Source of the DNA: Streptomyces roseochromogenus subsp. oscitans DS 12.976
GTDB taxonomy: Bacteria; Actinomycetota; Actinomycetes; Streptomycetales; Streptomycetaceae
Direction of reading: 5' to 3'
Length of the DNA: 64,000 bases
Assembly: GCF_000497445.1 (NCBI RefSeq)
Contig: NZ_CM002285.1
Span: 9,203,959-9,267,958 of the forward strand
In this document: piece by piece, positions 57,993 through 64,000 of the stretch
Position numbering within the stretch: the stretch's first letter is position 1
Layout: each line of letters begins with the position of its first letter
Notes under the pieces: model-generated
What the model saw: the letters and a program-made list of their open reading frames with translations, nothing else
Told to the model about the DNA's origin: nothing
The model's database searches: none
Program-made: the position numbers and the translations under genes

Positions 57993-58517
57993 ATGACCAT
58001 GACCACTCGCACCCGCATCGCTCGTCTCCGCACCCTCGGCCTCACCGGCATCGCCACCACCGGTGCCGCAGCCGCCGCAATCACCCTGATGCCGACGAAC
58101 GCACAGGCCGCCGAAATGACGCAGGTGCATGCCACCTCCGTGGTCAAGGCCTCCGGCAGCGACACCCGCACCACCTCCGGGCAGCAGACCGGCTACGGCA
58201 ACAACCTCGACGGCTGGATCAAGCAGTCTCTGCAGATCATGAAGGCCAAGGGCATTCCCGGCAGCTACGAGGGCCTCAAGCGCAACATCATGCGCGAGTC
58301 CGGCGGTAACCCCAACGCCCAGAACAACTGGGACGTCAACGCCAGGCAGGGCACCCCGTCCAAGGGGCTCCTCCAGGTCATCGACCCCACCTTCAACGCC
58401 TACCACGTCGCCGGCACCGCTCAGAGCGTCACCGACCCGGTGGCCAACATCACCGCGGCCGCCAACTACGCCGCCCACCGCTACGGCTCCATCGACAACG
58501 TCAACTCCGCCTACTGA
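57993..58517 (+). CDS. Secreted transglycosylase SLT/lysozyme-like protein
   Basis: A 174-residue secreted protein. The signal peptide (RTRIARLRTLGLTGIATTGA then AAAAITLMPTNAQA) precedes a linker and a GEWL/SLT domain: the catalytic Glu in RNIMRESGGNPNAQNNWDVN, the GTPSKGLLQVIDPTFNAYHV segment and the C-terminal AAANYAAHRYG. The family cleaves peptidoglycan glycan strands and in actinomycetes helps spore germination and growth. GGAGAG lies about 12 bases upstream. A long leader precedes the gene; related genes are often under riboswitch control. Confidence 0.9.
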   Translation: MTMTTRTRIARLRTLGLTGIATTGAAAAAITLMPTNAQAAEMTQVHATSVVKASGSDTRTTSGQQTGYGNNLDGWIKQSLQIMKAKGIPGSYEGLKRNIMRESGGNPNAQNNWDVNARQGTPSKGLLQVIDPTFNAYHVAGTAQSVTDPVANITAAANYAAHRYGSIDNVNSAY

Positions 58518-58650: not shown

Positions 58651-59745
58651 TCAGTGTGTCAGGGACAGGAGCGGGAAGGCGTCCAGGCCGGGACGGTGCT
58701 TGGTCAGCAGGTCGCGGACCTGTTCGGTCAGGCGCCAGTCGTAGCCCAGGGACTCGACGGCGCAGCGGACGCTCACGTACCGGGCGCCGGGGTGGCCGGC
58801 GCGCTGGACGTGGAGCCAGGTGTCCAGTTCGCTCAGGAAGGTCTCGTCGTCGAGGAGGTCGCGCGCGGTGTGCCGCCGGATCGCGCGTCGGCGCTCCCGT
58901 TCGACCTCGTTGAATCCGTACAGCCGCAGGCTGACGTCCTCCGCGTCGGCCAGGGTGTGGGGACGAGCTGCCAGCAGGCCTTGAGCGAGGCGGTTGTGGT
59001 CCAGGGCCCGTGCGAGTGGCAGGTCCCAGACGCGGCCGCTGTGGCCGGTGAGCGGGATCGGGCCCGCGCCTTCCCTCGTGAGGCAGGGGCCGCGCAGCCC
59101 CGCAGCGGCTGCGGCGAGCAGGGTGCTGGCTTCGGACGGGTGCCAGCGGAAGATGTTCGCCGCCCACTCGGGGATGGTGCGGCCGAGGTCATTGCCGTCG
59201 TCGGCGAAGCGGGTCAGCAGGGTCGCCTCGGGTACCTCGCCGTCGAGGCCGGGGCCGGCTATGTGGACGGTGGCGGGAATGCCCGCCAGCCGGCAGGACG
59301 CCAGGACGAGCGCGTCGGGCAGGGGACTGACGAGCGTGGGTTCGTCGCCGTGGGCGAGGATGTCGCCGCCCATGTCCACGACGCTGATGTGGCCGGCGCC
59401 GAGCGCGCGGGCGGTCCGCCCGATCTGATCGGCCAGCCCTTCGACACCGGCGTAGGGGTCGAGGAGCCCGAGCCTCGTCGGCAGGTCGCCGGCCAGCCGC
59501 GGCAGGGTCGATCCGCGCTGCCCGACCGGCTTCGATCCGGCGGTGACGAGCGGCACCGGCAGGGTGTCGCGGTCGAGGCCGGCGAAGTCATGCGGGGCGA
59601 GGGGGCCGGGAAGCGGATCCACCGTGAGGCGTTCCCAGGCGTAGGTGAGGACCACGGCATCGGCGTCGGAGCCCAGGCTCGCGTGGGTGAGGGCCGTGCC
59701 GATCGGGTCACCGCCGCCGCCCGCCGCGATGAACAGCTCGGTCAC
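58651..59745 (-). CDS. DUF1152 domain protein
   Basis: A 364-residue protein with the DUF1152 start (ELFIAAGGGGDPIGTALTHA) and conserved VVDMGGDILAHGDEPTLVSP and FRWHPSEASTLLAAAAAGL segments. The Gly-rich N-terminal loop and the alternating alpha/beta pattern suggest a nucleotide-binding Rossmann-like fold; the function of the family is unknown. GTG 59745 overlaps the stop of the radical SAM gene by four bases (GTGA), so both are translated together. Confidence 0.85.
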   Translation of the reverse strand: MTELFIAAGGGGDPIGTALTHASLGSDADAVVLTYAWERLTVDPLPGPLAPHDFAGLDRDTLPVPLVTAGSKPVGQRGSTLPRLAGDLPTRLGLLDPYAGVEGLADQIGRTARALGAGHISVVDMGGDILAHGDEPTLVSPLPDALVLASCRLAGIPATVHIAGPGLDGEVPEATLLTRFADDGNDLGRTIPEWAANIFRWHPSEASTLLAAAAAGLRGPCLTREGAGPIPLTGHSGRVWDLPLARALDHNRLAQGLLAARPHTLADAEDVSLRLYGFNEVERERRRAIRRHTARDLLDDETFLSELDTWLHVQRAGHPGARYVSVRCAVESLGYDWRLTEQVRDLLTKHRPGLDAFPLLSLTH

Positions 59746-61175
59746 GAAGCCGCTCGCGCCGTGCGGATCCCCGAGATGCCGACCGGCGTACCCATGTGCT
59801 TCCGGGCTCGCTTGTTCTGCTCGTGCAGGCGTTCGTAGTAGTCACGGTCGAGCTGCACCACGGTGTCGGAGAAGAACATCCAGGACAGGATGTCGCGGTA
59901 TTTGAAGCCCTCGGGAGTGAGCTGGGCGCGGCGGCCGAGGCGGCGCAGGAGCCCGGTCTCCTCGGCGGCGTCCAGGATCGGCTCGAACAGGTGAGCCTTG
60001 TCCTGGTAGCCGAAGCGGTCCAGTTCGGCGAGGTCCAGGTCGAAGGTGTCCAGGACGAGGCGCTTGCGGATGATCTCCTCGTCATCGAGGACGAAGCCGG
60101 TGACCGGCCGCAGCACGTGGGCCTCGGCCTCGGCGATGTAGTCGGCCACTTCGGACATGGACGGTTTGACGGAACCCACCATGTAGTCGAGGACGCCGGT
60201 GTAGGAGCGGGCGCCGACACCGAGCCCGAGCAGCGGCACGCCGTGGAAGGTGAGGACCTTCTGTTTGTAGCCGCCGCGGCCGAGTTTCTTGTAGCGGACG
60301 GAGCCCTCCTGGACGTAGCCGTGGTCGGTGAAGACCTGACGGGCGTAGTCGTAGCGCTCGTACAGGTTCGGGGACTGCGCGTACTGGTAGGCACCGGTCT
60401 TGGAGAACCAGGCGTCCGGGCGCACGGTGAGGAAGTACGTGCTGATCGTGGCCGGGTCGAGCCGCGCGAGTTCGTCGACGGAGTGCCGCCAGGTCTCGTC
60501 GGTCTGGCCGGCGAAGCCCATGATGAGGTCGGTCGACAGGTCCGGCAGGCCCTTGTCGTGCGCGATCTCGATGGCCCTGCGGATGACCTGTTCGCCCGCC
60601 TGGCCGCGTCCGGCTTCGCGGATCTCCTTCGGCACCAGGGACTGGATCCCGATGTTGGCCCGGGTCAGGCCGAGTTGCAGCAGACCTTCGAGAGTGGCGG
60701 GCTCGTTGACGATCGAGTCCGGCGTGGCCTCGATCGCCACTTCCTCCACGGTGGAGCGCCAGTTGGGGTACACCTCGTCCAGCGTGCTGAACAACTGCTC
60801 GAAGTGGCGCAGGGACAGCAGGCTCGGGGTGCCGCCGCCGAGGTAGACGGTACGCAGCCGGCGGGCGCGGATGATGTCGGCGTGGTCCCGCAGCTGGGTG
60901 CACAGCGCGTTCATGTACGCCGTGTAGACGTCCGTGTCCTCGCTGATGACGGTGTACAGATTGCAGAAGCCGCATTTGTAGCGACAGAACGGCACGTGCA
61001 GGTACAGGTTGAGCTCGGGTACCTGATACAGGGTCAGGTCCCGCTTCCAGGCCTCCTCGACGGTCCAGGAACCGTCGAGCGGCCGGTAGGTGGAGCGTGA
61101 CGGATAGGAGTAGTTGTACGGCGGGATGACGCCCTGCCGGATGTATTCGGTGAGCTGTGCGGCGTAGCCGGTCAC
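59742..61175 (-). CDS. HemW/HemN-like radical SAM protein
   Basis: A 477-residue radical SAM enzyme. Cys64, Cys68 and Cys71 (CRYKCGFC) bind the 4Fe-4S cluster; the YLGGGTPSLLS segment and EATPDSI, NIGIQSL and DLIMGFAGQTDETWRHSV follow the HemN order. The C-terminal region (LDLAELDRFGYQDKAHLFEP, TPEGFKYRDILSWMF) is the HemN_C type. An N-terminal extension of about 50 residues is present. Besides coproporphyrinogen dehydrogenases and heme chaperones, this group includes class C radical SAM methylases and cyclopropanases of natural-product pathways. The neighbours favour the latter; no other heme gene is present. Confidence 0.88.
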   Translation of the reverse strand: MTGYAAQLTEYIRQGVIPPYNYSYPSRSTYRPLDGSWTVEEAWKRDLTLYQVPELNLYLHVPFCRYKCGFCNLYTVISEDTDVYTAYMNALCTQLRDHADIIRARRLRTVYLGGGTPSLLSLRHFEQLFSTLDEVYPNWRSTVEEVAIEATPDSIVNEPATLEGLLQLGLTRANIGIQSLVPKEIREAGRGQAGEQVIRRAIEIAHDKGLPDLSTDLIMGFAGQTDETWRHSVDELARLDPATISTYFLTVRPDAWFSKTGAYQYAQSPNLYERYDYARQVFTDHGYVQEGSVRYKKLGRGGYKQKVLTFHGVPLLGLGVGARSYTGVLDYMVGSVKPSMSEVADYIAEAEAHVLRPVTGFVLDDEEIIRKRLVLDTFDLDLAELDRFGYQDKAHLFEPILDAAEETGLLRRLGRRAQLTPEGFKYRDILSWMFFSDTVVQLDRDYYERLHEQNKRARKHMGTPVGISGIRTARAAS

Positions 61176-61384
61176 GCGAAAGTGCCCCTCTCGTACATGT
61201 GTGACGGGTGGGTCGTCGATGAGTCAATCCGCGATCGGTGGCCGGGACCCAGGTCCGGTATCCACGAACCCCGGCCCGCTGGGAGCGTGCACTCCTGTGC
61301 GATGACCCGAACTCCACCGGAAAGGTCGCTTCCGCAAAGCCGAACCCCTAGGATCCGTGCCCCGGCGGGCGGCTGGAGCTTGCT

Positions 61385-61395
61385 ACAACCGTTGT
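61385..61395. promoter_or_regulatory. Palindrome in divergent promoter region
   Basis: ACAAC-C-GTTGT is a perfect 11-bp palindrome, followed 25 bp later by a related GGTTGTTA half-site. It lies in the 290-bp region between the radical SAM and ATP-grasp genes, 73 bp upstream of the latter, and may be a shared operator. The rest of this region has no gene. Confidence 0.4.
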
Positions 61396-61467
61396 CGCGA
61401 AATCGCTGTCCTGCTCTGGTTGTTACGTTGATGGCCCCGGCCCTGCCGGTGCGGTCTACTGCGCGGC

Positions 61468-62700
61468 GTGAAGAAGATCCTGCTGATCGAAGCGCTCGCA
61501 AACTCGGGCCCCTATGTGCTGGATGCCGCCCGCGCACTCGGCGCGCGCGTCTTCGTCGCCACCCACGAGGACGTTTACGAGAGCTACCCCGGCGCTCTGC
61601 GCGACAAGATCCACGGCGCGGTGTTCACCGACCTCACCGACCCGGACCGGGCGCTGGCGGACCTGGCCGCGTTCGCCGAGGCGACGGGGATCGACGCGGT
61701 GGCCGGCTGCTGGGAGTTCTTCACCCCGCTCGTCGCCCACCTGGCCGAGCGCCTGGGGTTGCCCGGCAACGACCCCCGGCTCGCCCAGGCGTGCCGGAAC
61801 AAAGCGGTGATGGCCCAGGCCTTCTACGCGGGCCAGGTACCCGCGCCGAGAACGATCAGTGTGCGCACGGCCGGGGAGGCGGCACGCGCCCTCGGCCGCA
61901 TCGGCATCGGATTCCCGGTCGTCGTCAAACCCGCCGAGCAGGGCGGCTCCTGGGGTGTCAGCGTGGTCGAGAGCCCCGAACAGCTCGACGCCGGCGTACA
62001 GCACGCCCAGTCCTGGCCGATCGCCGCCCCGCACGGCCTGCCCATGGACCAGCGTGTCATCGTCCAGGAGTACGTCGCCGGACCCGAGTTCAGCCTCGAC
62101 ACCGTGGTCTGGCGTGACGAGTACTTCCACCTGCCCCCGGTCGAGAAGCACACCACCGCCGGTGCCTACCGGGCCGAGACCGGTCACACCTGCCCCGCCG
62201 CTCTGCCGGCCGCCGAACTGAGCGCCTTGCGGGCCGCCACCGAACGGGCGCTGCGGGCCCTCGGCATCCGCAACGGCGTCGCCCACACCGAACTCAAGAT
62301 CTCACCCGACGCGGGCCCCGTCGTCATCGAGGTCGGCGCCCGCCTGCCGGGAGACCACCTCGTGGACGTCATACGCCGGGCCTCCGGCATCGACGAGGCC
62401 CGCGCCTACCTCCAGGCCGTCCTCGACGAGAAGCCGGACGTGCCGGCGCCCCGGGAGGGGGCGTGCGCGATCCGCTTCCTCACCCCGCCGCGCGCCGGCA
62501 CCTTCCACGGGGTGACCATCGACGGCCGGCACGACGGCCTGGTCGACGGGGACATCACCACGCCGACCGGCGCCGTCGTCGGGAGCGCACACGACAACTC
62601 GGCCCGCATCGGCCATCTGGTCTTCACCGCGCCCACGGCCGCACAGGTCAACGCCGACGCCGCCCACGCACTCGCCCACACCCGCATAGAAGTGAGCTGA
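61468..62700 (+). CDS. ATP-grasp carboxylate-amine ligase 1
   Basis: A 410-residue ATP-grasp protein of the type used for amino-acid ligation. The N-terminal Rossmann-like part starts KKILLIEALANSGPYVLDAA. The ATP-binding core has PVVVKPAEQGGSWGV, QEYVAGPEFSLDTV and the magnesium-binding GVAHTELKISPDAGPVVIEV, then GARLPGDHLVDVI. A C-terminal domain (REGACAIRFLTPPRAGTF) resembles that of L-amino-acid ligases and carnosine-synthase-like enzymes. It would couple a carboxylate with an amine through an acyl phosphate. GTG 61468; the ribosome site is weak. The next gene starts one base after its stop. Confidence 0.9.
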   Translation: MKKILLIEALANSGPYVLDAARALGARVFVATHEDVYESYPGALRDKIHGAVFTDLTDPDRALADLAAFAEATGIDAVAGCWEFFTPLVAHLAERLGLPGNDPRLAQACRNKAVMAQAFYAGQVPAPRTISVRTAGEAARALGRIGIGFPVVVKPAEQGGSWGVSVVESPEQLDAGVQHAQSWPIAAPHGLPMDQRVIVQEYVAGPEFSLDTVVWRDEYFHLPPVEKHTTAGAYRAETGHTCPAALPAAELSALRAATERALRALGIRNGVAHTELKISPDAGPVVIEVGARLPGDHLVDVIRRASGIDEARAYLQAVLDEKPDVPAPREGACAIRFLTPPRAGTFHGVTIDGRHDGLVDGDITTPTGAVVGSAHDNSARIGHLVFTAPTAAQVNADAAHALAHTRIEVS

Positions 62701-62701
62701 C

Positions 62702-63952
62702 ATGCAGCGCATCGCCTTCCTCCGGTCCGTCGACATCCAGCGCGCCGACCCGTACATCCACGGCATCGCCCCTGCCCTGGCGCGGCTCGGCGCCGAGGCC
62801 CGCCTCTTCCACACCCACGGCGAGTGCGGCCCGGACATGTTCCCGGGCACGAGTGAACGGCTCGACCCGGCCGCGACGCCGGACGAGTTCGTCGAGCGGG
62901 TGCGTGCCTGGGGGGCCGACGCCGCCGTGGCGATCTCCCTGCCGGACGAGAACGCACTGCGGGACGCCGTCGTCAAGACCAAGCTCGAAGCCCTCGGCAT
63001 CCGCACCGTCATGACTCCCCTCGCCGCCACGCGCGTCCTGTGCGACAAGTGGGAGACCAAGCGGGCCCTCGGCACGCACGGCCTCACCACCCCGCCCGCC
63101 GTCCTGGTCGACAGCGACCTGCTCAACGACCGGGCGCTGCCCGTCCCGGCCTACCCGGACGCCGTCCGCCTCGCCGCCCAGGACCTCGGCTACCCCCTCA
63201 TGGCCAAGCCGCTGTGGGACTCCACCAGCATGGGCATCGAGTTCATCCCCGACCCGGCCGCCCTCGACCGTCATCTCGCCGCCCCGCCCGCGGCGCACGC
63301 GGTCCTGGAGAAGTGCGTCAGCGGACGGCTCTGCTCGGTCGACATCGTCGGCGCCGGCGGCCACTACACCGTCATGCCGCTCATCTGGACCGGCACCGCG
63401 GGCGGCCCTCCCGCCTTCACCTTCGAAGACCTCCGCTACGTCGACCCCGCCCGGGGCGCCGACTTCGGGCCCACCGCGCAACGCCTCGTGGACCTGTGTA
63501 CGGCGCTCGGTGTCGAGGGTTCCGTGAACGTCGACATGATCTACGCCGACGGCGTGTACCACGTCCTGGAGATCAACCCCCGGATCGGCGGCGCCACCAC
63601 CCTGTCCATCGCCGCCGGCGGACTCAACACTTTCGCCGCCCTTCTCGACATCCTCACGGGCACCTGGCCGACCCGCAGCGGCGCTCCGGCCGAGCGATTC
63701 GCGATCGAGTGCCTCACCGCGAACCCCACACCCACGCTGCTCGCCGAACTCCGCGCCCGCATCGACCTCGTCACCTGCCACGACCTGATCATCGACGGCC
63801 ACAACCACGGCGGCATCCTCACGTTCACCGTGAACCCGGGCGACGAGCAGCGGGCCGTGAAGGAACTCACCGAGTTGTACGAGCGGACCGGCTTCATCGC
63901 AGTCCCCAGGCTCGACAAGATCCGCCGTCTGCTGACCCCCGCGGGCCAGTGA
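62702..63952 (+). CDS. ATP-grasp carboxylate-amine ligase 2
   Basis: A 416-residue ATP-grasp protein, only distantly similar to its neighbour. Features are QRIAFLRSVDIQRADPYIHG at the start, PLMAKPLWDSTSMGIEFIP, then EKCVSGRLCSVDIVG, and the metal-binding VEGSVNVDMIYADGVYHVLE with INPRIGGATTLS. The last motif is a typical D-x-x-x-x-x-x-x-x-E-x-N pattern of ATP-grasp ligases. ATG 62702 follows the previous stop after one base (TGACATG), so the two ligases are made together and probably act in sequence, forming two amide bonds or adding two building blocks. Confidence 0.9.
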   Translation: MQRIAFLRSVDIQRADPYIHGIAPALARLGAEARLFHTHGECGPDMFPGTSERLDPAATPDEFVERVRAWGADAAVAISLPDENALRDAVVKTKLEALGIRTVMTPLAATRVLCDKWETKRALGTHGLTTPPAVLVDSDLLNDRALPVPAYPDAVRLAAQDLGYPLMAKPLWDSTSMGIEFIPDPAALDRHLAAPPAAHAVLEKCVSGRLCSVDIVGAGGHYTVMPLIWTGTAGGPPAFTFEDLRYVDPARGADFGPTAQRLVDLCTALGVEGSVNVDMIYADGVYHVLEINPRIGGATTLSIAAGGLNTFAALLDILTGTWPTRSGAPAERFAIECLTANPTPTLLAELRARIDLVTCHDLIIDGHNHGGILTFTVNPGDEQRAVKELTELYERTGFIAVPRLDKIRRLLTPAGQ

Positions 63953-64000
63953 GCGTCCCCGCCGGCAGGCGGTCGGCACGCAGCGGCGCGCCGCCGGGCC

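Follow-up and report, generated by a model that had tools for sequence, protein, structure and literature searches.

A conserved six-gene Streptomyces cassette that pairs a HemN-type radical SAM protein and a DUF1152 protein with two ATP-grasp ligases: a candidate pathway to a small peptide-like metabolite

Radical S-adenosylmethionine (SAM) chemistry and peptide assembly by ATP-grasp ligases are known in outline. For the phosphonoalamides of Streptomyces, the part of PMC11867202 that treats the ligases describes a two-ligase tripeptide pathway, in which PnaC makes dipeptides and PnaB links them to a special residue. The cyclopropanase of CC-1065 consists of a HemN-like radical SAM enzyme, C10P, and a dedicated second protein, C10Q (PMC6050322, sections on this pair). 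NocN and NosN are class C radical SAM methylases (PMC12871812, sections on these enzymes), and HNxxYW is given as the heme-binding motif of HemW in the relevant portion of PMC11834973. Here, we analysed a 64,000-nt stretch of Streptomyces roseochromogenus subsp. oscitans DS 12.976 (NZ_CM002285.1, 9,203,959 to 9,267,958), hereafter the window, at the right end of which genes for a radical SAM protein and a DUF1152 protein face genes for two ATP-grasp ligases. They belong to a six-gene unit that is arranged in two divergent arms of mostly overlapping genes and is conserved at differing sites in Streptomycetaceae. We propose, with a probability of about 0.6, that this unit is a biosynthetic cassette, complete in itself, whose product is a small peptide-like metabolite.

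We searched 391 Streptomycetales genomes, one per species, for the radical SAM protein (E ≤ 1e-60). The gene was found in 20 of them, at full length in 18 and in partial form in 2 (G369 and G269). Neighborhoods were compared on stretches of up to 20 kb from 19 of the 20 genomes, together with the window's own locus and one further DUF1152 locus; G318 provided a 4.3-kb contig only, and the 14.3-kb stretch of G062 was ended by the contig end. Of the 18 genomes whose radical SAM gene is full-length, 16 had all six genes in a single order. Fifteen of these were established by gene calls, counting in a fused ATP-grasp open reading frame (ORF) in L141, and the 16th, G212, by locating its GNAT-like gene with tblastn. 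G062 carried five of the six genes before its contig end, and G318 had, besides the radical SAM gene, just a relative of ATP-grasp 2. A first-pass annotation, made by a model from the letters of the window, had described a four-gene unit and called for a comparison of neighborhoods across genomes; the grouping is indeed conserved, but the unit comprises six genes.

The distance matrices of the six genes correlated with each other (r of 0.93 to 0.98, no species-tree control) over 15 loci that have all six genes, a set that includes L034, leaves out its same-species twin L134 and does not contain L139. Because the same order recurs in 16 of 18 genomes and the matrices correlate to this extent, the grouping is more than chance. 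The radical SAM protein was the slowest of the six, with a mean distance of 0.21 versus 0.37 to 0.45. Flanking genes, clustered at >40% identity, were mostly single. Near relatives (L003/L150, L034/L134 and L137/L138) had flanks in common, and three flank families with three members each also reached L139, L140 or L135. As the flank genes mostly differ between loci, the cassette occupies different chromosomal places. In draws from the phylum and from the class, 3 of 396 and 5 of 394 genomes matched, all of them Streptomyces. A search with P0098 of 271 genomes from the phylum of L052 gave no match, a result that carries no weight. A contig scan returned at least 80 loci, one with the cassette (L034, from Streptomyces filipinensis) and 79 far relatives.

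On the minus strand, the DUF1152 gene (58651-59745, 364 aa) overlaps the radical SAM gene (59742-61175, 477 aa) by 4 bp, GTGA, and an overlap of this length is present in most loci. The two arms are separated by a divergent intergenic region of 292 bp (61176-61467), which is presumed to hold the promoters. The gap measured 170 to 295 bp in 15 of the 16 loci for which it could be given, leaving out L034/L134, where a start was miscalled. The exception was L148, from another genus of the same family, in which an additional major facilitator superfamily (MFS) gene lies between the arms. On the plus strand follow ATP-grasp 1 (61468-62700, 410 aa), a one-base spacer, ATP-grasp 2 (62702-63952, 416 aa) and the gene for an MFS exporter. 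The latter, with a GTG start at 63949 and a 4-bp overlap with the stop of ATP-grasp 2, occupies 63949-64000 and runs beyond the right edge of the window; its translation was compared with the N-terminus in relatives. A FemAB/GNAT-like gene comes next, outside the window, in a 4-bp overlap with the MFS gene, and its product scored 67.9 bits on FemAB_like and 44.8 bits on Acetyltransf_6, both above cut-off. Thus, one arm reads radical SAM then DUF1152, and the other ATP-grasp 1, ATP-grasp 2, MFS and FemAB/GNAT-like. ORFs and family scores agree with the four genes, the overlap and the spacer given by the first-pass annotation, and its surmise that the locus continues to the right was correct. 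In L141, both ATP-grasp genes form one in-frame ORF of 838 aa, possibly through a sequencing error; its residues 11-416 match ATP-grasp 1, and residues 423-838 match ATP-grasp 2.

The radical SAM protein scored 74.7 bits on PF04055 (cut-off, 29.5) and is predicted to have a HemN-type fold. Its motif cysteines, C64, C68 and C71, pointed out in the first-pass annotation, were invariant in a 30-row alignment. It shares the HemN-type domain and CxxxCxxC with HemW, but it scored 135.5 bits on the HemW model TIGR00539, below the cut-off of 205.4, and 122 bits on the HemN model TIGR00538, far below 324.95. HNxxYW was absent from all 120 listed relatives, all 19 cassette rows and all 9 STM4012-like rows and present in 71 of 74 HemW-type rows, which a script extracted from 80 loci tried (L035-L113 and L002). 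The genome itself encodes a separate HemW elsewhere (L002), which the script had missed and which has HNxxYW, in keeping with the earlier argument against a heme role for this locus. The best NCBIfam match was the STM4012 family (NF006067), at 268 bits with a cut-off of 380.

A quick tree of 188 rows split HemW (Shimodaira-Hasegawa-like approximate likelihood ratio test, 94) from the window clade plus STM4012, at a point where long branches meet. We then consider a more careful tree of 52 rows that included Escherichia coli HemN and HemW, the HemW of the same genome and five plasmid STM4012 proteins. It supported the window clade (100/100), the window clade with all STM4012-named rows (100/98) and HemW (94/96). 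The STM4012-named rows were split into two rhizobial-type and twelve other rows, and they formed one clade in 28% of the bootstrap trees; the exact sister of the window clade is therefore unsettled. HemN, a single row with a branch length of 3.84, fell beside HemW. The tree placement that the first-pass annotation had suggested as a check thus puts the protein outside HemW, with HemN represented by one long-branched row. By motif, scores and trees, the protein is not a HemW; it forms its own clade and belongs with the STM4012 branch. Public databases name members of this clade coproporphyrinogen-III oxidase family protein or heme chaperone HemW, names that the motif and trees contradict. An additional N-terminal stretch of about 130 residues or more is present in some far relatives, P0107 (603 aa) and P0109 (654 aa).

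The cassette protein resembles the STM4012 family in the PFCxxxCGFCNL motif, in having partner genes close by and, for nine Streptomyces loci, in having DUF1152 as the partner. It differs in its sub-threshold score and its separate clade, and in that STM4012 is seen in plasmid STM4011-STM4015 operons, whereas here the gene lies in a six-gene peptide cassette. In a profile search of the PDB, HemN matched with an E value of 1.7e-34 over positions 19-390, which include an N-terminal arm, and NocN with 3.7e-29 over positions 53-288; NocN is described without such an arm in the sections of PMC12871812 that cover it. The counterparts of the NocN residues that bind its second SAM (Y58, Y111, R172, D216 and S245 here) were conserved, but they do not discriminate, as the HemW rows, drawn from a scan whose patterns favored Y at one site, keep them also. 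They indicate a HemN-type fold and no more for that reason, and we dropped them as proof of class C chemistry. The class proposed in the first-pass annotation thus stands as HemN-type and outside HemW, and its link to class C methylases is neither supported nor opposed by these residues. R252, D254, R294, Q305, K306, R323 and K371 were identical in all 120 listed relatives. The commonest residue in HemW rows differs at all seven sites, with D at the position of D254 in 4 of 74; R252 and R323 also occur in the 9 STM4012-like rows. As charged residues are unchanged in all 120 relatives, we infer that the ligand is probably charged.

The DUF1152 protein scored 252.5 bits on PF06626 (cut-off, 27) and may be the partner of the radical SAM protein. 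It has an invariant glycine-rich loop, AAGGGGD, and its AlphaFold2 model had a pLDDT (predicted local distance difference test) value of 94.2. In Pfam scans of 68 members, all 68 matched DUF1152; sCache_3_2 came second, with 16 matches and E values no better than 0.0006. Foldseek against the PDB found no match to the model at E ≤ 0.001. A PIG-L-like Foldseek match obtained no backing from hhalign against one LmbE-type protein, and no match to methyltransferases was significant (rows at E of 0.1 or worse, none among 50 further rows). In 9 of the 19 other loci inspected, a DUF1152 gene and an STM4012-like radical SAM gene lay head-to-head, and for this reason the pair looks like a recurrent module. 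Three DUF1152-paired Streptomyces radical SAM proteins scored 525 to 592 bits on NF006067. This second recurrent pair (L152-L158, L167 and L168, all Streptomyces) has a transporter-like gene nearby in five of its nine loci and FolE-like, TIGR00725-like and Nudix genes in two.

ATP-grasp 1 scored above cut-off on ATPgrasp_N (74.2 bits versus 27), ATP-grasp_4 and LAL_C2 (51.6 versus 29.4), and its best PDB sequence matches were the L-amino acid ligases BL00235 (3vot, 5e-22) and BacD. No NCBIfam ligase model exceeded its cut-off among the best 25 of 34 matches. Its ATP-grasp core and LAL_C2 domain predict that it is of the L-amino acid ligase type. ATP-grasp 2 appears to be a second carboxylate ligase of ATP-grasp fold (PF02655, 36.9 bits versus 23.2). 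We found 145 relatives of it among 7993 scored candidates, and those with an organism name among the 120 listed were from Streptomyces or Kitasatospora. Conserved residues were K112, K154, E275 and E288 in ATP-grasp 1 and K116, K169, E290 and N292 in ATP-grasp 2, which we take to be catalytic. The stepwise amide formation suggested in the first-pass annotation would thus fit ATP-grasp 1, while ATP-grasp 2 is placed by its general fold only.

We propose that the radical SAM enzyme generates a 5'-deoxyadenosyl radical and, with DUF1152 as its partner, would alter a substrate that is small and charged, most probably an amino acid; a second SAM might take part, as it does in class C enzymes. ATP-grasp 1 would couple amino acids, and ATP-grasp 2 would form a second amide bond, to the radical-modified residue. 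The MFS protein would export the product, and the FemAB/GNAT-like enzyme may attach a last acyl or aminoacyl group or protect the producer. This order of assembly is proposed by analogy with PnaC and PnaB. The likeness to that pathway, as the available part of PMC11867202 presents it, is that a small Streptomyces cluster has two ATP-grasp ligases, one of them resembling L-amino acid ligases in type. The difference is that the warhead enzymes here would be the radical SAM protein and DUF1152, and the ligases are likened to PnaB and PnaC by description, not by sequence. Family scans assigned no phosphonate gene among the six cassette genes; no search was aimed at phosphoenolpyruvate mutase. The radical SAM reaction and the part played by DUF1152 are the least certain elements of the proposal. 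C10P/C10Q offers a precedent for pairing a HemN-fold enzyme with another protein. Plasmids of Rhizobium tropici (L185 12001-14318) and Cupriavidus taiwanensis (L186 9938-12273) carry a radical SAM gene from the superclade of the cassette protein that overlaps, by 4 bp, a gene for a class I methyltransferase. On these plasmids, the methyltransferase gene stands where DUF1152 does in the cassette. The R. tropici pair lies beside cco genes.

A sharper form of this proposal is that the radical SAM protein and DUF1152 carry out a two-component methylene transfer like that of C10P/C10Q. The former would add a SAM-derived methylene, and the latter, in place of a methyltransferase, would resolve the SAM adduct, for example to a cyclopropane or another ring. 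The requirement of C10P for C10Q (PMC6050322, in the portion on these proteins), the NocN-type second-SAM residues (as the sections of PMC12871812 identify them), the methyltransferase overlaps on the plasmids and the invariant loop of DUF1152 speak for it. We nevertheless consider it unlikely, since HemW keeps the same residues, DUF1152 shows no significant similarity in fold to methyltransferases and stand-alone DUF1152 copies are common; the cassette protein is likened to C10P by description, not by sequence, and its partner is DUF1152. HemN converts propionate to vinyl. Analogous chemistry here, with hydrogen abstraction next to a carboxylate and decarboxylation to an alkene, would yield an unsaturated amino acid, which would then be masked when the ligases build it into a peptide. 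HemN is the best PDB match and includes the N-terminal arm, which the NocN match does not, and the conserved charged residues would suit a small acid. However, decarboxylation has no direct support and the HemN model score is 122 versus 325 bits, which makes this reaction quite improbable.

Radical SAM and ATP-grasp enzymes both occur in pathways to ribosomally synthesized and post-translationally modified peptides (RiPPs), and the presence of both classes could mean that a ribosomal precursor peptide is modified here, as in a RiPP or graspetide pathway. Yet no small ORF was common to the loci in the gap between the radical SAM and ATP-grasp 1 genes, the only gap searched for precursors (the region outside the cassette was not searched). 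Most other gaps are overlaps or short, and ATP-grasp 1 is of the L-amino acid ligase type, so that we regard such a pathway as very improbable. The lowest probability falls to a heme or porphyrin function of the HemW or HemN kind with incidental neighbors. The database names of the relatives favor it, but the missing motif, the scores below both cut-offs, the position outside HemW in both trees, the separate HemW in the genome and the conserved neighbors led us to reject it.

Several points weigh against a peptide-forming cassette with a radical SAM/DUF1152 step. DUF1152 was alone in 10 of the 19 other loci, so that partnership with a radical SAM protein may not be inherent to it, and the radical SAM clade reaches other phyla. 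ATP-grasp 2 ties between PurK, biotin carboxylase and L-amino acid ligase folds, leaving amide formation less secure. In the nearest sister locus, L150 (G369), the radical SAM gene lacks residues 1-296, including the cysteine motif, and the remaining five genes are kept at 82 to 94% identity. No regulator and no polyketide synthase or nonribosomal peptide synthetase gene marks the cassette. Reaction, substrate and product are proposals drawn from gene content, order, conservation and family placement.

The radical SAM/DUF1152 pair stands a reasonable chance of being a new enzyme system. A further idea, tentative and somewhat doubtful as a whole, is that Streptomyces employs DUF1152 as a dedicated partner of two related radical SAM families, forming a new two-component system. 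The new amino-acid building block made by this system would enter an exported peptide natural product, for which roughly one in twenty of the sampled Streptomycetales genomes has the cassette. If true, this would give a first functional handle on DUF1152 and open a HemN-fold radical SAM branch with relatives in several phyla under heme-enzyme names. It would also reveal a compact, fairly frequent and apparently undescribed class of Streptomyces peptide metabolites, expressible from <9 kb of DNA. Among open-licence PubMed Central articles, we found no paper on DUF1152 or its partnership, this radical SAM clade, STM4012 or this gene combination, which the first-pass annotation, too, had not recognized from a described pathway; a related article listed there concerns the Pbo cluster of phaseolotoxin.

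Comparison with PADLOC models at E ≤ 0.1 yielded no match for the four complete cassette proteins of the window or for the GNAT-like protein, giving no sign of an anti-phage role. The genes for a cytochrome P450 (56294-57529) and an SLT protein (57993-58517) were considered as cassette members and taken as flank; they recur only in the near sister L150 among the 22 loci compared. A radical SAM remnant in G269 (L151 9031-9492) has 67% identity over the C-terminal third and stands without other cassette genes. To the right of the cassette (L003 11224-16368) lie two tandem genes, presumably phospholipase-C-like.

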